Source: Candidatus Obscuribacterales bacterium (lineage in GTDB: Bacteria; Cyanobacteriota; Vampirovibrionia; Obscuribacterales; Obscuribacteraceae). Taken from it: DNA of 64,000 bases. The translations under genes were made by a program, and so were the position numbers. Numbering within the stretch: position 1 is the stretch's first letter; each line of letters opens with the position of its first letter. Positions 1,890 to 12,471 of the stretch are shown here, piece by piece. Location: NCBI GenBank assembly GCA_949127735.1, contig CASBPX010000027.1, positions 32,578 through 96,577 on the forward strand, given 5' to 3'. The notes under the pieces were generated by a model. It saw nothing but the letters and a program-made list of their open reading frames with translations, was not told where the DNA came from and searched no databases.

Positions 1890-3686
1890 TCAACAGCTAA
1901 CGCTAAGCTTACTCATTTGGAAGATATGGGGCTCAACCAACACTTTCACGCTGGGTTGAAATGGGCTGCCGATCTTTACCTGATTTTTAGGCAATGCCTG
2001 ATTATTAGAAGATACCTGATTTTTAGACGACACGCGGGCCAATTCAGTCATTAATACTCGCATGCGATCATAAGTGTTTATATCGAGCCCGCTCCATGAA
2101 CAATCACTGTCGACAGAACTAGGTTGGTGGTCAGCATCTACTAAACATCCGTCACTAAAGGTCAAAATGCGATGTTCGCCGTCAAAAAATTCAATGCGAC
2201 TATTCAACAAAATTGTTAGTTTTTTCGCTTGCAAATACATCTTAGCGCTGCGCATTAAAATGCCGTAGATCATCTCCAGAACATCATTTTCGTCTAGTTC
2301 GCGCTCTTCGTCAATTTCGTTGTCAGCCTCTTCATCGGCCTGTTCATCTGTCTGGTCATCTGGCTGGTCCACAACTATCAACTGACTTTCTGTGCCATCC
2401 ACCAACTGAGATTGAAGTGCTAACAATTTCAGCAGTTGCTCTTCTTCACGTTTAAGAGCGCGTAAGGCATTGACCTCGGCACGGAGAAGCACCATGCCCA
2501 GTGCCAGAAACTTTCTCGCAGTTATTTGTTGTAGAGAATAATCGGCAAGCATTCTATTTTGTAAGAATAGTGCGAAGGCAGCGCCAATCACCTCTTCTCC
2601 CACCAGACCCCAGAATATCTCGGACGGCCGAGAGCCGCTCTGCAAAGCCTGCAATAAATCGAGCAGCGGTTTAAATTGATCGCTGACAAAAGGGCCAAAT
2701 TTAAAGTTGCTATCCTGGTTAAGTGAGCTTGCAGTAAAATCATGATTATAAAAACTGAGGAAGCGGCCGCGCTCACGCAAAGCCCTGTTGTAGGGCGGAT
2801 CGTGATGTTTGATCAGATCTGTTTCGAGTAGAGCGGCCTCAAGCGGAGTGGCCACAACTGTCACCGCCACATCAAAAATTTGGCTAATTAGCTCTTTGGT
2901 TTTAGAATCTTTACCTTTGCGTCCGCGAAAATAACTGTTGACACGGCTTTTTAACGAAGTGGCCTTGCCCACATAGAGAATTTTGCCTTCGGCATTAAGC
3001 ATCCGATAGATGCCTGGCCGATCTGGCAGATCAAGCCGCTTCAGTCTTTCCATCGGAATGGCATAAGCATTTTTCTTAGCTTGAGTTTTAACTAGCGGCT
3101 TACTCAACAACTTAAGCAACTGGTCGCTATCTTCAATGCCCAGCGCTGACAAATCTGATAGCAATCTCTGCCAGATAAAGAATGTGGCTTCCACATGACA
3201 CGATGATCGTTTCATTTCAGAAAGGCTCAAGCCGAAGTAGCCACCCAACGCCCGGATAGCACGTGATGGTAAATCAGGATAAAGCCTTTTGGCAATCTGA
3301 CAGGTGCAAATAAACTTAAATGGTGCGTCCACCGCATGATCGGCAAAAAGTTGCCCAACAAAACTTTCTTCAAACTGTGCGTAATGTGCCACCACAAATC
3401 TAACCGGTCCAAATGAACCGTCACCGATTTGCCCCATCAACTCTGCCACTACATCTGCCGGTCTGTGGGCTGTGGCCATATCAGCAGCTGTAATGCCGGT
3501 AATGCGCTGAATACGCATCGGTAATTCTTGATCGTCGGGCAGCCGTAACAGCCGATTTACTATTGTAGGCTTTGTGTCGCTAACGCCACTCAAAGACCAG
3601 CCCAGTTCAAGCACATGCGCCGTTTTTGGAGTAGCACCAGTTGTCTGGCAATCTAAAAATAGAACTTTTTCTTCAGCTAGTTTCAC
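1890..3686 (-). CDS. DnaQ-like exonuclease fold fused to UvrC/Cho-type GIY-YIG nuclease domain
   Basis: This 598-residue protein has a GTG start and overlaps the helicase stop by 14 bases, so translation is probably coupled. Residues about 7-175 match the DEDDh exonuclease fold of DNA polymerase III epsilon, but the catalytic motifs are altered: LDCQTTG at 11-17 has Gln for the second acid, HYAQFEE at 101-107 has Glu for Asp, and the third motif has Glu166 without a His at the usual spacing. Residues about 220-310 form a GIY-YIG domain with PGIY (224-227), LYVGKA (237-242), Arg248 and a downstream LEAALLE Glu, all intact. An acidic linker follows (DDQTDEQADEEADNEIDEE). This arrangement resembles Cho/UvrC-like repair nucleases with a DnaQ domain. 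Likely role: DNA incision in repair or defence, with a non-catalytic DnaQ domain. Confidence 0.8.
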   Translation of the reverse strand: MKLAEEKVLFLDCQTTGATPKTAHVLELGWSLSGVSDTKPTIVNRLLRLPDDQELPMRIQRITGITAADMATAHRPADVVAELMGQIGDGSFGPVRFVVAHYAQFEESFVGQLFADHAVDAPFKFICTCQIAKRLYPDLPSRAIRALGGYFGLSLSEMKRSSCHVEATFFIWQRLLSDLSALGIEDSDQLLKLLSKPLVKTQAKKNAYAIPMERLKRLDLPDRPGIYRMLNAEGKILYVGKATSLKSRVNSYFRGRKGKDSKTKELISQIFDVAVTVVATPLEAALLETDLIKHHDPPYNRALRERGRFLSFYNHDFTASSLNQDSNFKFGPFVSDQFKPLLDLLQALQSGSRPSEIFWGLVGEEVIGAAFALFLQNRMLADYSLQQITARKFLALGMVLLRAEVNALRALKREEEQLLKLLALQSQLVDGTESQLIVVDQPDDQTDEQADEEADNEIDEERELDENDVLEMIYGILMRSAKMYLQAKKLTILLNSRIEFFDGEHRILTFSDGCLVDADHQPSSVDSDCSWSGLDINTYDRMRVLMTELARVSSKNQVSSNNQALPKNQVKIGSPFQPSVKVLVEPHIFQMSKLSVSC

Positions 3687-6144
3687 TTAAAACTCTATCC
3701 TTAACAGCTAAATCTTGACTTTGCCAAAACGATTGAATATCTGCAATGATGCTGGCTGATACTAGCTCACTGACCTGCTTATCGAACCAATCGGCGGGCA
3801 TTGAATCGGCATATTGTTTTTGAATAAAACGCTGATCCATCAGCACAATTAATCCGCGGTCATCGCCTGAGCGAATAACTCTGCCTGCCGCTTGAATTAC
3901 TTTAGCCATGGCCGGATAAACATAGGCATAATCGAAACCATTGCCATAGCGTTTATCGTAATATTGTCTAATTTGCTCTCTTTCAAAATTGAAATTAGGC
4001 AGACCCGGCCCCACAATAATCGCACCAATAATCATTTCGCCCGGATAATCTACCCCTTCAGCAAAAACCCCACCCTGTACAGCAAAAACTAGAGTGGGCG
4101 AGTCTGATTTAGCCAGTGATTCCATAATACTTTTGGCTTTAGCCTGAGTAATTTCACTATCTTGTTTGAGCAGTAAAACGGAGTTGGGCAATTTTTCTTT
4201 TATGAGATCGTGCACACTGCCAAGAAATGCAAAGCTGGGGAAGAAAACAAAATAATTGCCAGGCTTAACTTGCACAATGCGGGCGATACCATCGGCAATT
4301 TTGCCAAAATTTCTCTGCCGATCAGAATATTTTGTTGATACTTGAGGAATAACAAGAAGCTTGCGGTGCTCTTTAGGAAACGGGCTTGTATACTCACGCT
4401 TAGAAAGCTCAGGGTCATCCAGCCCGGAGAGTTGAGCAAAATAATCAAATGGCTTAATGGTGGCAGAAAATGCCACCACGTGAGCAAACTCTTTATGAGC
4501 CACTTTGAGTTTGGCCGACGCGTCGCAGCAAACTACTTTCAGCGCTTCATCGATGGTGCCGTCACGCAATTTATTGCGGGTATAAAGGTGAAAAAATTCA
4601 TCACCTTCATAATCAACGGCATCAATAAAATCGTTAAAATAGTGCATGATTGCCATCAGCGGATCTGACCCCGGGCTGCTGTCAGCGGCCTTGCTGGCGA
4701 TTCTCCGAACCACCAGGTCTTGCAAAGCCGGCAGGGCCTCGCCAAATAAGTCACGCGAAATGGTGATGCGCGATTCTTTATATCCGACCATGCGGCCAAC
4801 GTTGGCAATCACAAATTGAATTTTAGAGACAACAGCTCTGGCTTCCACCACCTGATCAAAGGGCAGTGATGCCAGCTCAAGGGCGAGATTGGCAATTACT
4901 GATGAATTCAAACTTTTACTGTAATAATCAACTGCCCGCTGTGGCAAATTATGAGCTTCGTCAATGACCAGATTAGGCTTCTGCGCCGTTTTACTGAGGC
5001 TGTAAGTAAATCTTCCCAGGGTGTTGCGCGGCGAGAAAACATAATTATAATCGCCGATCACAACGTCTGCCGCTGCCACCGCATCTAGTGAGGCCTCAAA
5101 GGGGCAAACTTGATACTGCTGTCCAATTTCTTTGAAAGCATCTGCAGTGAGGCTGGTCATTTCAGCCATTTTCTCAACAACTCTATGCTCGCTCATTTTT
5201 TCATAATAGTCGCGGGCGTACTCGCAATATCCCGGATTGCAAATAACTTCTTCTTTTAAACACATTTTTGCCTTGGCATTGAGAGTCAAAGCTTTAATGG
5301 CAGCGCCACCATCTTGCAACCTGGTTATCGCTTCTTGCGCTACAGAATGCTGACTATTTTTGGGAGTGACGTAGACCAGTTTTTGACCACGGCGCAAACT
5401 GTCTTGCAATAGCGGAAATATTACGCCGATGGTTTTGCCAAGACCTGTAGGAGCCTGCACCAGCACTTGATGCTTGCTTTCAATATCGGTGGACAGTTCA
5501 TCGACTAATTCTTTTTGGCCCACACGCAATTTCGTAAAGGGAAATATTAATCGCCCTGCCATTTCCATGCGACGAGCGCGCGCATCTTCTTCAGCTTTAA
5601 CTTCTTCTTCAAGTTCGGCCATACGCAGAGCAAGCCACTTTTCGTAAAGTGGAACCTGAAAATCGTATTCGAGAACATCAACTTTATCAAATGTATTCGA
5701 AGTCACTAAAAATCTAGTGCGCGGCACCACTTCTCGCTCTAAATATAAAATGTACGCGTAGGTGGCCAACTGCAAACTGTATGGATGCTCGTGATCGCTG
5801 GCCAGTTTTTGTAACAACTCCACTGGCGAAGTCGAGCTTTTGATCTCTTCAATTTCTGGTATCAAACCATCGACAAAACCATCGATGCGACCCGATACAC
5901 TGAAAATATAATTTGCCCCTTCAAATTTGTGGGCAGCCTTCACTTCGGCTTTGTAAATAGGAAAAAGGCGCTGACGTTCCTTTTGAATTTTTCCATGCAA
6001 CTGCCGGCCTTCGGCAGCCAGTGCCAATGGCCCGCCAAATAATTGACCATAGCCGCTGTTGACCTCGATGCTGCCTGTACGTGGACAGGGCATAGCGAAG
6101 TCTCTTACACCTATCACTACTGTTTTTTTTGCAGACTTCGACAC
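3673..6144 (-). CDS. XPD/DinG-type Fe-S helicase with N-terminal Cas4/RecB-like nuclease domain
   Basis: This 823-residue protein starts at GTG. Residues about 20-170 look like a PD-(D/E)XK nuclease: His50, GRID with Asp88, EIK with Glu100 and Lys102, and QLATY (Gln125, Tyr129) as the RecB-family Q-xxx-Y motif. Residues 231-238 are Walker A (APTGLGKT). Cys296, Cys303, Cys308 and Cys348 have the spacing of the XPD/DinG iron-sulfur cluster, DEAH is at 396-399, and the C-terminal AGRVIRSGDDRG is helicase motif VI. DinG-family enzymes unwind DNA 5' to 3', often R-loops or forked structures. Fusion to a Cas4-like nuclease suggests coupled unwinding and cutting. The downstream DnaQ/GIY-YIG gene overlaps it by 14 bases, pointing to one repair or defence module. 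A plausible promoter lies at 6192-6220. Confidence 0.85.
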   Translation of the reverse strand: MSKSAKKTVVIGVRDFAMPCPRTGSIEVNSGYGQLFGGPLALAAEGRQLHGKIQKERQRLFPIYKAEVKAAHKFEGANYIFSVSGRIDGFVDGLIPEIEEIKSSTSPVELLQKLASDHEHPYSLQLATYAYILYLEREVVPRTRFLVTSNTFDKVDVLEYDFQVPLYEKWLALRMAELEEEVKAEEDARARRMEMAGRLIFPFTKLRVGQKELVDELSTDIESKHQVLVQAPTGLGKTIGVIFPLLQDSLRRGQKLVYVTPKNSQHSVAQEAITRLQDGGAAIKALTLNAKAKMCLKEEVICNPGYCEYARDYYEKMSEHRVVEKMAEMTSLTADAFKEIGQQYQVCPFEASLDAVAAADVVIGDYNYVFSPRNTLGRFTYSLSKTAQKPNLVIDEAHNLPQRAVDYYSKSLNSSVIANLALELASLPFDQVVEARAVVSKIQFVIANVGRMVGYKESRITISRDLFGEALPALQDLVVRRIASKAADSSPGSDPLMAIMHYFNDFIDAVDYEGDEFFHLYTRNKLRDGTIDEALKVVCCDASAKLKVAHKEFAHVVAFSATIKPFDYFAQLSGLDDPELSKREYTSPFPKEHRKLLVIPQVSTKYSDRQRNFGKIADGIARIVQVKPGNYFVFFPSFAFLGSVHDLIKEKLPNSVLLLKQDSEITQAKAKSIMESLAKSDSPTLVFAVQGGVFAEGVDYPGEMIIGAIIVGPGLPNFNFEREQIRQYYDKRYGNGFDYAYVYPAMAKVIQAAGRVIRSGDDRGLIVLMDQRFIQKQYADSMPADWFDKQVSELVSASIIADIQSFWQSQDLAVKDRVLSETS

Positions 6145-6225: not shown

Positions 6226-6546
6226 TTATCTGCGTCCACCAAACTGATCAGCTGTGGTGATTTGCTCTCCGCAATGTGTACAGCGGGGAAAATCGCCGTC
6301 CCATGCCCCTTTAGGGAAGACATGACCATTTAGCGAGCAAGAAGAATGATTTTTCTTGCTCGGCAGAAGATCGGCAAGAGCACTGAAGATTCCTGCCCAA
6401 AAGCCTTGAATGCCTTTGATGAGTTTGACAACCGGGCTATCTTCTTTTGTTTGCACTGTTTTGAGCGTTTTAAGCTCGCTATGAGTCATGCGCCCAGCGC
6501 GCCTACCTGGCCTTGCCTCTGGCGGTTGCTCACCTTGTTCATCCAT
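6226..6546 (-). CDS. Small protein with C-terminal zinc ribbon
   Basis: The protein is 106 residues from ATG 6546, which has GAGAGG and GGAG upstream; a GTG at 6615 would add 23 residues. The N-terminal half is basic and polar. A short hydrophobic stretch (IQGFWAGIFSALADLLP) could be an amphipathic or membrane-touching helix. The C-terminal part contains C-S-L-N-G-H and CTHC, a Cys/His and Cys-x2-Cys arrangement typical of a small zinc ribbon. No family is recognised. It precedes the helicase operon in the same direction, but a separate promoter seems to lie between them. Confidence 0.6.
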   Translation of the reverse strand: MDEQGEQPPEARPGRRAGRMTHSELKTLKTVQTKEDSPVVKLIKGIQGFWAGIFSALADLLPSKKNHSSCSLNGHVFPKGAWDGDFPRCTHCGEQITTADQFGGRR

Positions 6547-6671
6547 TCTCCAATTCCTCTCAACCACCGATACAGAACAGCCAACTCTTGACTGCCATTC
6601 TATTCCCTTTTCCACCTATTTGCACTAAAAGAAAGTTACAGTCTGGCACTAAGTCTTACAGCGAGCGATGC

Positions 6672-6737: not shown

Positions 6738-8792
6738 ATGGCAAAAACAGTCGGAATCGATCTTGGAACAACAAACTCTGTCGTAGCAGTGATGGAGGGT
6801 GGCCGCGCCACCGTCATCGCAAACTCTGAAGGCGGTCGCACCACACCTTCAGTTGTAGCCTTCAACAAAACTGGTGAACGGCTTGTGGGGCTTCTGGCCC
6901 GCAGGCAAGCTGTAGTCAATCCGGTCAATACAATTTACTCAATCAAGCGCTTCATCGGCAGACGCTTTAACGAAGTATCAGAAGAGTGCAAAATTGTCTC
7001 GTATAAAGTAAAAGAATCATCAGATGGCGGCGTGCGCGTGATGATTTCAGACAAGGAATATACGCCGGAAGAAATTTCAGCCATGATTCTGCGCAAATTG
7101 AAAGAAGACGCTGAAAAATATCTGGGCGAGAAAGTAGACAGTGCCGTAATTACAGTACCGGCCTATTTCAATGACTCCCAAAGACAATCAACTAAAAACT
7201 CGGGAACTATTGCCGGTCTCGAAGTGCTACGCATCATCAACGAACCCACTGCAGCAGCGCTCGCATATGGTGTCGAGAAAAAAGGCAAAGACGAAACCAT
7301 TCTAGTTTTCGATCTTGGCGGCGGTACATTTGACGTTTCCATATTAGAAGTGAGCGATGGTTTAATTGAAGTTAAATCAACCTCAGGCGACACTCACCTG
7401 GGTGGCGACGATTTCGATCACGCGCTTGTACAGTGGATTGCCACCGAATTTCAAAATAGCGAATCGATTGATTTACGCAAAGATCCACAAGCTCTGCAGC
7501 GCTTAACTGAAGCTGCGGAAAAAGCAAAAATAGAACTTTCATCTGTGACTGAAACTGTCATCTCGTTGCCTTTCATCACTGCCAATGATCAAGGGCCCAA
7601 GCACCTTGACATGAAGCTGACACGTTCGCGTTTCAATGAGCTCACACACGCTCTTGTTGAACGTTGCAAACAGCCAATCGAACAGGCCATGGCCGACGCT
7701 AAACTGACCTATAACGAAATCGATGAAGTGGTGCTGGTGGGTGGCTCAACTCGTATTCCTGCAGTCAAAGATCTTGTCAAAAGCCTGACTGGCGGTAAAG
7801 AGCCAAATCAGAGCGTTAATCCTGATGAAGTGGTGGCAGTAGGTGCCGCACTGCAAGCAGGCGTGCTCTCTGGTGAAGTAACAGATCTGGTGCTTCTCGA
7901 TGTCACTCCGCTGTCTCTTGGTATTGAAACCTTAGGTGGTGTTTTCTCCAAATTGGTGGAACGTAACACCACTATTCCTTGCCATAAAACCCAACTCTGT
8001 TCAACTGCTGCCGACAATCAAACTGCAGTAGACATTGTGATTTTCCAGGGCGAGCGCCAAATGGCGAGAGACAACAAAAAATTAGGCAATTTTAGCTTAG
8101 ATGGCATCGCCCCTGGTGCCCGAGGCGCATCGCGCATCGAAGTATCATTCGATATTGATGCCAGCGGCATAGTAAAAGTTTCGGCCAAAGACTTGGGCAC
8201 CGGCAAAGAACAAAATGTCACCATCACCGCCAGTACCAATCTAACCAAAGAAGATATTGAGCGTATGGTTTCAGAAGCTGCTGAAAATGCCGAAGGTGAC
8301 AAAAAGACCAGAGCCCTGGCCGACCTGCGCAATGAGGCTGACGGCCTGATTTACACTATTGAAAATCAAATGCGCGATCTTGGCAAAGGCTTAACCGATG
8401 CCTCGAAAGCAAAAGCCGAAGACATCATTGGTAAATTGCGCGGTCAAGTAGCTGCCGAGGCTGAAGAAGCCGAAATCAGAGAGACCATGAACGAGCTGCG
8501 CGGCCATGTTGTCATCATGGACCAGGAAGGCAACGAATACAAGCAGAAACAAGCGGCTGAAGCCGCCTCTGGTGAAGGCACAGAAGAAAAAGCTGAAGGT
8601 GAAAAAGCTGAGGCTGAAGCCAAAGCCGAGGGTGACGCTGCAACCGCAGACGAGGCCAAGGCAGAAGGCGAAGGCCAAAGCGAAGATGATGCCGAAGAAG
8701 TTAAGCCTGAAGGCAGCAACGGTAATTCTAATCACGAAGCCAAGGCTGAAGACGGAGCTGGCGCCGAAGAAGAAGCCGGAGCGGCAAAATAA
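6738..8792 (+). CDS. dnaK: Chaperone protein DnaK (Hsp70)
   Basis: This 684-residue protein is a clear Hsp70. The ATPase domain opens with GIDLGTTNS and contains [25 protein letters not shown] and [10 protein letters not shown]; the substrate domain has [12 protein letters not shown] and [15 protein letters not shown]. It folds client proteins in the cytoplasm with DnaJ and GrpE, neither of which is in the window. The last roughly 80 residues form an unusually long Glu/Lys/Ala-rich tail instead of the short EEVK-type end, making it about 45 residues longer than E. coli DnaK. It stands alone between a helicase operon and a secreted lipase-like gene, which suggests it may be one of several paralogues. 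A hairpin terminator follows at 8842-8875. Confidence 0.97.
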
Positions 8793-8934: not shown

Positions 8935-10683
8935 GTGAAAGTGATGAAAAAAACAAATACATTTTTGGCTCTCGCCACCATAATTTTCAGCCAGGCTAGC
9001 TGCATGCAAGCAAAGGCCCAGAACGCCGGCGACAACTATGATATGTTCCGCGCCGAAAATGCAATCAGTCACTATTCTCCGCCAGCAGGGCCCCCAGCGC
9101 AGTTTCCAGCCTCTGCCATGGCTGGCGCTACTGTAGCTAACAGCGGCAGAACACAAAAGCTCGACAAAGTGCCTTGCATTCGCTGGATAGACGAATTGGC
9201 CACCCCAAGAGCAGTGCTCTTGTGCATCCACGGCCTGGGCCTGCACAAAGGCGTTTACGAAGAATTTGGCCGCGAGATGGCAAAAAAAGGCATCATTACC
9301 TATGCAATCGACATGCGCGGTTTTGGCTCGTGGATTCCTAAAGAAAAAAATTCGCTGATAGATTTTGATGGTTCTCTGGTCGACATCAAAAGAGCCTTGC
9401 TCGAAATTCGCAAAGTGCACCCCGGCCTTCCTGTAATTATGTTGGGTGAGTCTATGGGTGGAGGAATCGGCATTCACGCCACCGCCATGTATCCTGACTT
9501 AATCGACGGCCTGATTTCGTCAGTACCGTCAGGTGATCGCTTCAATGACGTTACTCTGCACGTAGGTGCTCATGCCATTTTTGGTGGATTTGATAAACCC
9601 ATGGACATCGGTCCGATGGTAGTTGGTAAAGCCACAACAAAAAGCGATTTGAGATCGCGCTGGCTCAATGACCCGCTTTGCCGTACCAAACTGAGTCCTA
9701 ACGAACTCAGAGCTTTCCAGAAATTTATGGACGGCAATATTGAACAAGCGGCCATGATCAAACAAACACCCGTACTCTTCATTATGGGTTCGAACGATAA
9801 ACTAGTGCGGCCGGTTGCCACTTTCAAACTTTTCGACAGCCTTGCCACTCCAAACAAAGACAAAGTAATGTCAAACTCAGCTGAGCACCTGATTTTTGAA
9901 ATCGGTCAATTCAGCAAAGACGACCTTAGTTTCGTCAATAAATGGATAGACAAAAAAGTTCTCGCTAAAGGCGTTGAAGAGCCGACTGAAGAAATTGCAG
10001 TGAAGACCGGCAAAAAAGAAGAGGAAGTTGTGGTACTGGCACCAGCGGTGACAGTAAAACCAGTTAAGCCCCTAACCCCTGTGGTGGAGACACCCCCCGT
10101 GAAAGTCTCCGCTGAGAGCACCGGCATGTCTTACTGGATTGAACTCAATCGCAAAGGCAAAATTTTCCGCTGCAACAATAAAATGGCTTTCCAATCAGGT
10201 GATTCCATTCGCTTTCATGTGATACCAGACAAAGACGGCTTTGCTTACATTTTGATGAAACAGAGCAGCAGCGGTAAAAAAGCCATCCTCTTCCCATCTA
10301 AAGATACGGGCAAAGACAATCAGCTCAAAGCCAAAGTCGACTATCCGTTGCCAAAAGATTGGCTGACTTTCGATCACAATCCTGGAATTGAAAAAATCAG
10401 CCTGCTTTATTCAACCAAGAAAATAGCTGACGAAGCCGCTCTTAACCCCCCTGAATACCTCACCGCCTATGTCTCTGACGACATGTCTGGTGCTAAAGAT
10501 CTGGTGCCCACACGCATGCAATTATCATGGGACGATCCAACCCCGGTGATTTTGCCTGATCAAGTGCCCGGTCAAGAAAGAATGGCTCGCAGCACCACAA
10601 TAATGTCTGGTAGTTTGGTTAAAGTAAGCTTTAACGACCCCAATGGACTGATGGCGGTAGATGTGGCTCTTGCCCACCAATAA
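8935..10683 (+). CDS. Secreted monoacylglycerol-lipase-like hydrolase with DUF4384-like C-terminal domain
   Basis: This 582-residue protein starts at GTG 8935 with AGGA upstream; ATG 8944 is an alternative. Residues 1-29 are a Sec signal peptide ending in AKAQ. Residues about 75-330 are an alpha/beta hydrolase of the lysophospholipase/monoacylglycerol-lipase type: oxyanion-side HGLGLHKG (99-106), nucleophile elbow GESMGGG with Ser173, acid Asp288 in GSNDKLV, and His318. A Pro/Val/Lys linker leads to a domain at about 425-560 resembling DUF4384 (SYWIELNRKGKIFRC, FHVIPDKDGFAYILM). DUF4384-like domains are commonly found with caspase-fold proteins. The next gene, 24 bases downstream, is a caspase-fold protein, so the two probably work together outside the cytoplasm. 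Confidence 0.82.
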   Translation: MKVMKKTNTFLALATIIFSQASCMQAKAQNAGDNYDMFRAENAISHYSPPAGPPAQFPASAMAGATVANSGRTQKLDKVPCIRWIDELATPRAVLLCIHGLGLHKGVYEEFGREMAKKGIITYAIDMRGFGSWIPKEKNSLIDFDGSLVDIKRALLEIRKVHPGLPVIMLGESMGGGIGIHATAMYPDLIDGLISSVPSGDRFNDVTLHVGAHAIFGGFDKPMDIGPMVVGKATTKSDLRSRWLNDPLCRTKLSPNELRAFQKFMDGNIEQAAMIKQTPVLFIMGSNDKLVRPVATFKLFDSLATPNKDKVMSNSAEHLIFEIGQFSKDDLSFVNKWIDKKVLAKGVEEPTEEIAVKTGKKEEEVVVLAPAVTVKPVKPLTPVVETPPVKVSAESTGMSYWIELNRKGKIFRCNNKMAFQSGDSIRFHVIPDKDGFAYILMKQSSSGKKAILFPSKDTGKDNQLKAKVDYPLPKDWLTFDHNPGIEKISLLYSTKKIADEAALNPPEYLTAYVSDDMSGAKDLVPTRMQLSWDDPTPVILPDQVPGQERMARSTTIMSGSLVKVSFNDPNGLMAVDVALAHQ

Positions 10684-10695
10684 GTAGCTAGTAGC
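10681..10695 (+). repeat. Seven-base tandem duplication right after the stop codon
   Basis: AGTAGCT is followed by AGTAGCA, starting in the TAA stop. The extra TAG triplets at 10685, 10689 and 10692 close the other two reading frames within 14 bases. Confidence 0.5.
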
Positions 10696-10707
10696 AGGAG
10701 ATAGCAA

Positions 10708-12471
10708 TTGAAGTTTTGTCTGTTGAATCGGTTGTTCAGCCTGGCCGGAAGTTTGATTCTTGCAGGGTTGACACCAACTCTGGCCGCCGGAACCAGTACC
10801 GCCACTGGTGCTACCGCCGAGCCCGATTTAAACAAAGCACCAGCATCAGGGGTGCAATGGACAAAAATTCAAGATCTTGATCCACATGCTACTGCCGGCA
10901 ATCGCCCCATTAAACAGAAATGGGCGGTCGTCATTGGCACCGCTAAGTTTAGAGAACACCGCTTAGACGCAGCGGACGCAAAAATGGATGTAGCAGCTCG
11001 TAACTTTGCCAGTTATCTGAAAGATGAAACTGCTGGTCGTTTTCCAGAAACCCACGTCAAGACGCTTATAAATCAAGAAGCCACCAGACAAAACATCCTC
11101 AACAATATTGGTAAAGGCTGGCTCGGAAGCCTGGCCGGCCCTGATGATCTGGTGGTTGTCTTTATCTCTACCCACGGTTTTCCCACCACCGATGGTACTA
11201 CTTATTTAAGCGCTTATGATTGTGCTTTAGATAACGTCTACTCAACTTGCATATCAATGCAGTCTTTGATGAAGACGTTGAAAGAAAACGTTAACACTGA
11301 TCGCATCGTCATGGTGCTTGAAGCGCCCTACAGTGGAGCTGCAGAACTTACAGAAGGTGCGAAAACCGCATACCCAAAAGCCAGCGTAGATTCAAGTAAA
11401 GTCAATCTAGGCAAAGGCTATATTATTTTGACATCGAGCAAACCAGATCAAATGACCTGGGGCAGTTCATTCTCATCTAACTTGATCAAAGCGCTCAAAG
11501 AAAATGACGGAATGGCACCACTTACTACCGCTTTTCAAAAAGCGCGTGAGTTGACTGAACAAGAGACCGGCAGCAGCGCCAATTCTAAGAAACAGACGCC
11601 GGTAATGAAATCTGACTGGGTCGGCAATGATATTGTGCTTGGTGCGCCAACCAAAGAACGAATCAAAGATATTCCCGAAAACGTCATGCAGTTTGTGGCG
11701 GCAGAGGCACACTATCTCAAAGCCAACAATTTTGTGGGTGAAGGCAATTTTGACGGAGCCATTGCTGAATACAAGGCCGCCATCGAAACCGACCCCGATT
11801 ATGCCGACGCCATCGCCGATTATGGTGCGGTGCTCACAATCAAGGGCGACTGGACCGCCGCTGCCGAGCAGTATAAACGAGCAATTACTCTGAAGCCGAA
11901 TGATGCACTGTTTCATGCCAACTATGCCAGGGTGCTGAACAAACTCGGTCAAGAAGAACAAAGCATTAAAGAGCTTGAACTGGCTTATCAGTTGAACCCC
12001 AAAGACAAAATAATCTTGGGTGCGCTGGCTAATAAATGTGTGGCCGCCGGCAACTTTGATAACGCGATTAGCTTGTTGGAGCAAGCCATTTATCTGTTTC
12101 CTAATTCTGCCCAGATGCACGATCGCTTGAGTTACGCTTTCGCTCGATCTGGCAACGTCACTCAATCATTTGCTCACGCTAAAGAAGCTGTAAAACTAGA
12201 TCCTAAGCTAGTTTCTGCTCGCTTGAACTTGGGCTCTGCACTCTTGCTAAAAGGCGACGCCGACTCCGCTAAAAAGGTCTATCAAGAAACAACCGCTATT
12301 GATCCTAAAAACCTCGATGCCCACTTCTTACTGGCCAGTACAATGGAGAAGCTCGGTGACGCTCAAGGAGCGAAATCAGAATTGACTACATTTATCGAGT
12401 TGGCACCGGTGCAAGATCCACGAGTGGAAAAAGCAAAAGCTAAAATTGCGATACTTGGCAAAGTGGAATAG
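10708..12471 (+). CDS. Secreted pseudo-caspase (peptidase C14 fold) with C-terminal TPR repeats
   Basis: This 587-residue protein starts at TTG with AGGAG upstream, 24 bases after the lipase stop. Residues 1-27 are a signal peptide. Residues about 70-310 match the caspase/metacaspase fold: KWAVVIGTAKF opens the first strand and FISTHG carries the catalytic His156. The second catalytic motif, normally D-x-C-x-S-G, reads LEAPYSG, with Pro207 (11326-11328) where the Cys should be. It therefore cannot use the normal Cys-His dyad. Residues about 330-585 are six or so TPR motifs (for example GNFDGAIAEYKAAIETDPDY). It is likely a binding or scaffold protein rather than a protease. A strong terminator follows at 12521-12572. 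Confidence 0.85.
   Translation: MKFCLLNRLFSLAGSLILAGLTPTLAAGTSTATGATAEPDLNKAPASGVQWTKIQDLDPHATAGNRPIKQKWAVVIGTAKFREHRLDAADAKMDVAARNFASYLKDETAGRFPETHVKTLINQEATRQNILNNIGKGWLGSLAGPDDLVVVFISTHGFPTTDGTTYLSAYDCALDNVYSTCISMQSLMKTLKENVNTDRIVMVLEAPYSGAAELTEGAKTAYPKASVDSSKVNLGKGYIILTSSKPDQMTWGSSFSSNLIKALKENDGMAPLTTAFQKARELTEQETGSSANSKKQTPVMKSDWVGNDIVLGAPTKERIKDIPENVMQFVAAEAHYLKANNFVGEGNFDGAIAEYKAAIETDPDYADAIADYGAVLTIKGDWTAAAEQYKRAITLKPNDALFHANYARVLNKLGQEEQSIKELELAYQLNPKDKIILGALANKCVAAGNFDNAISLLEQAIYLFPNSAQMHDRLSYAFARSGNVTQSFAHAKEAVKLDPKLVSARLNLGSALLLKGDADSAKKVYQETTAIDPKNLDAHFLLASTMEKLGDAQGAKSELTTFIELAPVQDPRVEKAKAKIAILGKVE

Follow-up and report, generated by a model that had tools for sequence, protein, structure and literature searches.

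The closest described counterparts of the two proteins considered herein are the EndoDinG helicase-nucleases, whose endonuclease activity is reported for B. bacteriovorus HD100 from unpublished data (PMC11981726, section 3.7), and the exo-GIY-YIG fusions, for which a role in excision repair has been proposed (PMC1564403). Among related arrangements, DinG from S. aureus, which combines an exonuclease with a helicase, is required for crosslink repair (PMC12345164), and B. subtilis employs MrfA and MrfB, a helicase paired with a DnaQ-superfamily protein, against mitomycin C damage (PMC11194089). The dead exonuclease fold of pExoDinG has in turn been proposed to serve in single-stranded DNA binding or regulation (PMC11981726, section 3.6).

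The window, a stretch of 64,000 nucleotides from a genome of the Obscuribacterales type (78% complete), contains two genes of these kinds, hereafter designated A (EndoDinG) and B (a variant of Cho-like+Exo). As claimed in an earlier reading made from the sequence only, the two genes overlap; both lie on the minus strand and they share 14 bp.

Domain composition of A and B

The features of the two genes are as follows.

3673-6144, minus strand: gene A, EndoDinG-type helicase-nuclease by its sequence, 823 aa, GTG start
5545-6144, minus strand: PD-(D/E)XK (Cas4/RecB/RecE-like) nuclease domain of A, residues about 1-200, from the invariant residues and the 9kqh alignment
5839-5883, minus strand: putative nuclease core of A, D88 ... 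E100, K102, from the homolog alignment
3772-5544, minus strand: XPD/DinG superfamily 2 helicase of A, residues about 201-791, with Walker A (230-238), DEAH (395-398) and Helicase_C_2
5104-5262, minus strand: FeS-domain cysteines of A, C295, C302, C307 and C347, from the homolog alignment
1890-3686, minus strand: gene B, predicted pseudo-DEDDh/GIY-YIG/UvrC-like protein, 598 aa, GTG start
3072-3686, minus strand: DEDDh (DnaQ) fold of B, residues 1-205, predicted to be catalytically dead from the fold match and site alignment
3645-3653, minus strand: motif I of B, D12-C13-Q14 (canonical D-x-E), with D and Q in 24/24
3369-3371, minus strand: motif II of B, E106 (canonical catalytic Asp of HNAxFD), in 24/24
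3195-3212, minus strand: motif III of B, K159...H164 (canonical H-x4-D), from column mapping in the alignment
2652-3071, minus strand: UvrC/Cho-type GIY-YIG nuclease of B, residues 206-345, predicted intact from the invariant residues and UvrC 1yd6
1890-2651, minus strand: acidic linker and helical C-terminal region of B, residues 346-598, its resemblance judged by eye
3673-3686, minus strand: 14 bp overlap between the stop region of A and the GTG start of B, from the ORF coordinates

Both Pfam and NCBIfam recognised XPD/DinG helicase domains in A, and the Walker A lysine as well as the D, E and H of the DEAH box were invariant across 79 A homologs from Cyanobacteriota, Bdellovibrionota, Thermodesulfobacteriota, Bacillota, Acidobacteriota, Lokiarchaea and other groups. 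In the same alignment, the nuclease residues E67, D88, E100 and K102 were identical in 79/79 sequences, and H50 was His in 77/79, so that the nuclease described in the sequence-only reading as intact-looking on account of Asp88, Glu100 and Lys102 retained that appearance throughout the family. To the earlier reading it can be added that the cysteines C295, C307 and C347 (79/79) and C302 (77/79, unaligned in the two other rows) are part of an XPD-type FeS domain. As judged from its sequence, the architecture of A is thus that of the published EndoDinG type, with the H, E, D, E and K of the N-terminal PD-(D/E)XK nuclease at H50, E67, D88, E100 and K102 and an XPD-like helicase core carrying the CCCC FeS motif. 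The nearest solved protein by sequence was 9kqh, DinG of Finegoldia magna (E 1.6e-90, residues 6-786), and the structural model of A (pLDDT 86.9) likewise found 9kqh as its nearest fold over the full length (TM 0.86 by target), with XPD structures next in rank. In A from Obscuribacter phosphatis (L110:9995-12859), the arch region was seen to hold a low-complexity insertion; an intein was considered there and rejected, the insertion being a Ser/Asn-rich repeat.

In B, the GIY-YIG domain was recognised with an E value of 1.5e-9, and the DnaQ fold was detected weakly by Pfam (E 2e-4) and strongly by PRK07883 (E 1e-48). The AlphaFold2 model of B, built with 21 family members (pLDDT 82.7), matched DnaQ 8h2f (TM 0.85) and the GIY-YIG domain of UvrC 1yd6 (0.87-0.91) in a Foldseek search. 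Since Y227, Y238, K241, R248, E288 and N300 were invariant in all of the 24 B proteins tabulated, the GIY-YIG nuclease is predicted to be intact. A third, C-terminal UvrC/Cho-like part can be added to the two domains noted earlier: residues 346-598 apparently represent a divergent Cho-like/UvrC tail, a likeness seen by eye, as the hhalign alignment stops near residue 343, and the Cys4 motif that follows GIY-YIG in Cho-like+Exo proteins was not seen in the B alignments when these were read by eye.

The exonuclease site of B was compared with the canonical DnaQ of the window genome (DVE / HNAAFD / HRALDD) and with intact Exo+GIY-YIG proteins, and carried D12, Q14, E106, K159 and H164 at the corresponding positions. 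D12, Q14 and E106 showed no variation among the 24 proteins; position 164 was H or Q (H164 in 21/24), and position 159 was K, but N or Q in Legionella. Neither the alignment to intact relatives nor the comparison across these 24 proteins restored the DnaQ acids, the point on which the sequence-only reading had let its inactive-looking DnaQ fold joined to an intact GIY-YIG nuclease depend, and the proposed make-up of B is thus upheld as a prediction. The motifs D-x-E, H-x-x-x-F-D and H-x4-D persist in seven Exo+GIY-YIG proteins that were not observed next to A, from Tsukamurella, Nonomuraea, three Burkholderiaceae, Persicobacter and Legionella israelensis, whereas three B genes that do not adjoin A have dead motifs too, with A present in their genomes; one of these lies in the bdellovibrionian genome G177, where B is unlinked from A. 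Chance decay would not give D12, Q14 and E106 in 24/24 proteins, and dead sites in B proteins encoded away from A, as against intact sites in unpaired relatives, indicate that the replacement is a trait of the EndoDinG-associated lineage rather than random decay. Considering the established chemistry of DEDDh enzymes, exonuclease catalysis is predicted to have been lost in B. That the catalytic residues are lost in a fixed manner wherever the lineage is paired suggests that the domain is a pseudo-enzyme serving in regulation or docking.

Co-inheritance of the two genes

A scan of a GTDB species collection with a profile of A yielded 80 loci, 78 of which contained A as a recoverable ORF. B was the adjacent gene on the same strand in 21/78, from Obscuribacterales, Bdellovibrionota, Legionella and one deltaproteobacterium, and was the sole neighbour of A kept across phyla; the gene order was reversed at one locus (L103). 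Most paired loci showed an overlap or short spacing between the two genes, and the 14 bp overlap in the window suggests translational coupling.

The association was also evident in a survey of 172 genomes, in which B occurred in 53, A was present in 53/53 of those, and the two genes were adjacent in 51/53. In Obscuribacterales, B was found in 23/53 genomes, all 23 with A on the same contig, and A occurred without B in 5; in Bdellovibrionia, B was found in 30/119 genomes, all 30 with A and 28 of them adjacent, and A occurred without B in 11. Fisher tests gave 2.6e-10 and 2.5e-19 for the two groups, respectively, values that ignore relatedness, and counting by genus in Obscuribacterales gave p 2e-5. 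The neighbourhood conservation on which the earlier reading had staked the pairing is therefore strong, and A and B are co-inherited and nearly always adjacent. Many lineages carry A alone, so that at least some functions of A do not require B.

The trees of A and B contained the same major clades and agreed on the groups of Legionella and Bdellovibrio and on most Obscuribacterales, with a correlation of A and B distances (rho 0.88) that is inflated by shared ancestry. When 82 A proteins were placed in a FastTree, those paired with B fell without exception within one group of 50 rows (99% local support). This placement is consistent with one ancient pairing followed by later losses, gain and loss not being separable here. 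One locus (L066) was labelled 'neither' in the tree though it carries B, having been left out of the underlying alignment (A3), and contig edges lie close to the ends of some of the other 'neither' rows; the number of pairing changes read from this tree may therefore be a slight overestimate.

Gene context and a candidate role in repair

On three Legionella plasmids, A-B is accompanied by a Y-family polymerase gene and umuD. Two of these plasmids also have dinB near the pair, two have SRAP and two Ku, LigD and UdgX occur on one each, and umuDC is among the surrounding genes; the plasmids share a related block and do not constitute three independent observations. In six loci where B was not adjacent, the gene immediately upstream of A belonged to TIGR04122, the ligase-associated DNA damage response exonuclease, in each case scoring above the curated cut-off. 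Of the 42 genes in operon-like positions next to unpaired A genes, more belonged to this than to any other family, and one encodes DNA polymerase IV; in G177 A adjoins a gene resembling a TIGR04122-type exonuclease.

The loci with EndoDinG directly downstream of a TIGR04122 gene were L070 (8943-9998), L077, L079, L088, L098 and L101, and at L165 (1706-2716) the gene beside EndoDinG resembles a ligase-associated DNA-damage exonuclease by its sequence. No description of this second partnership was found in the open-access literature.

Among the 104 genes flanking the pair, PADLOC matches were scattered and single only, and most flanking genes have no connection with defence. In Obscuribacterales, the flanks are syntenic, dnaK included; at the Obscuribacterales locus itself, dnaK and unrelated genes adjoin the pair, with no repair genes among them. 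No full-length relative of B was found on viral contigs, which gave small GIY-YIG matches only. Phage matches of A and B were set aside as evidence, being mostly unannotated records, some of them probably bacterial fragments. The PADLOC model PDLC01439 'typeIV_DinG' matched A at 1e-107 in the helicase part only, the Csf4 models scoring far lower, and the match was not taken as evidence of a type IV CRISPR system; of the genes next to A that were scanned, none was recognised as a Cas gene. As PDLC01439 calls this EndoDinG with no Cas gene recognised beside it, the model may over-call type IV systems. No RNA families or tRNAs were found near A and B, and a promoter and terminator scan rose hardly above shuffled sequences. 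Of the two roles offered in the sequence-only reading, repair is thus supported by the gene context, and defence is not, given flanking genes mostly unrelated to it, the scattered PADLOC singles, the syntenic flanks beside dnaK and the lack of a full B relative on viral contigs. The context favours repair over defence, for which the signals are weak.

Several genes next to the pair in the window are recorded here for completeness. An ORF of 129 aa with a zinc-ribbon-like C-terminal end (6226-6615, minus strand) lies directly upstream of A; it belongs to no Pfam or NCBIfam family and has homologs on the same strand and in the same place at four further loci (L062, L063, L080 and L099). Divergent from the pair is a dnaK/Hsp70 gene (6738-8792, plus strand), which is syntenic in several Obscuribacterales loci. 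The region downstream of dnaK (8935-12471, plus strand) encodes an S33-type, DUF4384-containing hydrolase and after it a protein that by eye looks caspase-like and equipped with TPR repeats.

Taken together, we put at roughly 60% the probability that A and B constitute a two-protein DNA-repair module for lesion processing. B would recognise DNA that is damaged or branched and nick one strand with its GIY-YIG domain, in the manner of UvrC/Cho. A would then load at the nick or exposed single strand, translocate 5'-3' like XPD/DinG, and cut the unwound strand with its PD-(D/E)XK domain, so that the fragment bearing the lesion (a bulky adduct, a crosslink or a blocked fork) would be removed and resynthesised. 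The pseudo-DEDDh domain of B may bind single-stranded DNA or dock B to A with no degradation of DNA. Since genus mates also encode UvrC, this route is probably accessory beside UvrABC. More tentatively, the pair could represent an undescribed two-protein excision machine, in which an XPD-like helicase-nuclease and a Cho-type incision nuclease would accomplish a UvrAB-independent dual incision reminiscent of eukaryotic XPD-centred excision repair, with the exonuclease domain as a non-catalytic DNA-end sensor or docking module.

DinG/XPD helicases act on replication forks and R-loops, and it is conceivable, though we consider it rather unlikely, that the substrate is a fork, R-loop or recombination intermediate instead of a lesion, with B cutting branched DNA and A clearing R-loops and flaps. 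B. subtilis DinG has been tied to replication stress (PMC12525004); the GIY-YIG domain of B is nevertheless of the UvrC/Cho and not the SLX1 type, and the context genes include some for translesion synthesis and end joining rather than recombination resolvases. A role in anti-phage defence, in which A degrades invading DNA after an initial cut by B as in Hna or other helicase-nuclease systems, appears improbable. Helicase plus PD-(D/E)XK is indeed a common defence design (Hna, PMC13381803), Hna stood at rank 49 among the fold matches of A, the 'typeIV_DinG' model gave its 1e-107 match, and the distribution is patchy, with plasmid carriage in Legionella. Against these points, the PADLOC match covers the helicase part only with Csf4 models far lower, the matches in the 104 flanking genes are isolated, the Obscuribacterales flanks are syntenic, no defence partner was found next to the two genes in the window, other lineages have repair genes as partners, and the nuclease of Hna is C-terminal and its helicase devoid of an FeS cluster, unlike those of A.

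The replaced site of B could also belong to a re-tooled, active DEDDh domain in which D12, Q14, E106 and H164 serve a different metal or substrate, and the near fixation of the replacements (D12, Q14 and E106 in 24/24, H164 in 21/24) is what a functional site rather than decay would show. We nonetheless give this only a slim chance, as one of the four metal-binding acids has become Q, another H or Q, and a third has been lengthened from D to E; K, N or Q stands in place of the general base, and K159 has changed in Legionella with the pair kept. Binding of a ligand or partner explains the conservation equally well. Finally, adjacency can persist by descent in close relatives, and B might merely be carried along with A with no functional coupling; this we hold to be highly improbable, because the adjacency extends across several phyla and includes the reversed order at L103, B is absent from every surveyed genome that lacks A, and B stays in the genome of A even when unlinked.

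As for the lesion-processing module, no description of the A-B pair or of the pseudo-exonuclease variant was found in the open-access literature, subscription papers lying outside the scope of the search. Both component kinds are known; what is new is the occurrence of B beside A across phyla and, among 172 surveyed genomes, only where A is present, together with the uniformly replaced exonuclease site and the repair context. To our knowledge, no biological role has been established for EndoDinG, and a partnership that crosses phyla, with B always accompanied by A where it was seen, offers a concrete, testable hypothesis for EndoDinG and the exo-GIY-YIG fusions. If the proposed mechanism were true, some bacteria would own an XPD-based excision route besides UvrABC.

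Comparison with described systems

With EndoDinG (PMC11981726; 9kqh), A shares the N-terminal PD-(D/E)XK domain, the XPD-like helicase and the CCCC FeS motif, together with full-length sequence and fold matches. A GIY-YIG partner is not mentioned in the EndoDinG section of that review (PMC11981726), whereas A in the window has B as its partner, and the pairing is confined to one clade of EndoDinG.

B resembles the Cho-like+Exo or Cho+Exo proteins (PRK07883, PMC1564403) in domain order, DEDDh fold, UvrC-type GIY-YIG domain and, weakly, the C-terminal part. With hhalign, residues 2-343 of B aligned with the actinobacterial Tsukamurella protein at 99.8% probability, and the PRK07883 set comprised the nearest curated models, with 166 bits for B falling far short of the cut-off of 495; a search of the named control genomes with NF005906 gave no member over its cut-off. 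B differs from this group in being paired with EndoDinG and in bearing D/Q/E/K/H in place of intact DEDDh residues: the seven unpaired members have an intact exonuclease site, and every paired B a replaced one. Nor is B a full UvrC with EndoV-like and HhH domains, as TIGR00194 covers the GIY-YIG end only (99-101 bits vs 285).

The proposal that A and B redistribute the parts of ExoDinG is unsupported as history, A being of the EndoDinG type and B a Cho-like+Exo variant, and ExoDinG need not be the ancestor of the pair. ExoDinG joins a DEDD exonuclease and DinG in one chain, whereas here the two parts sit on two genes and the nuclease of A is of another kind. In pExoDinG, a dead exonuclease fold is likewise linked to a DinG-type helicase (PMC11981726, section 3.6), yet it is fused, DEDDy-like and devoid of GIY-YIG, whereas B is a separate DEDDh-like protein with an active-looking GIY-YIG domain. 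Hna (PMC13381803) combines, like A, a DinG-like helicase with a PD-(D/E)XK nuclease. It is, however, a single gene product with a C-terminal nuclease and no FeS cluster, differing in each of these respects from A, which has an N-terminal nuclease, four FeS cysteines and a partner. MrfB is an active exonuclease and MrfA a helicase from another family than A, and we know of no description of a GIY-YIG domain in MrfB. As a helicase and DnaQ-superfamily pair for mitomycin C repair, MrfA-MrfB (PMC11194089) is a functional analogue of A-B.
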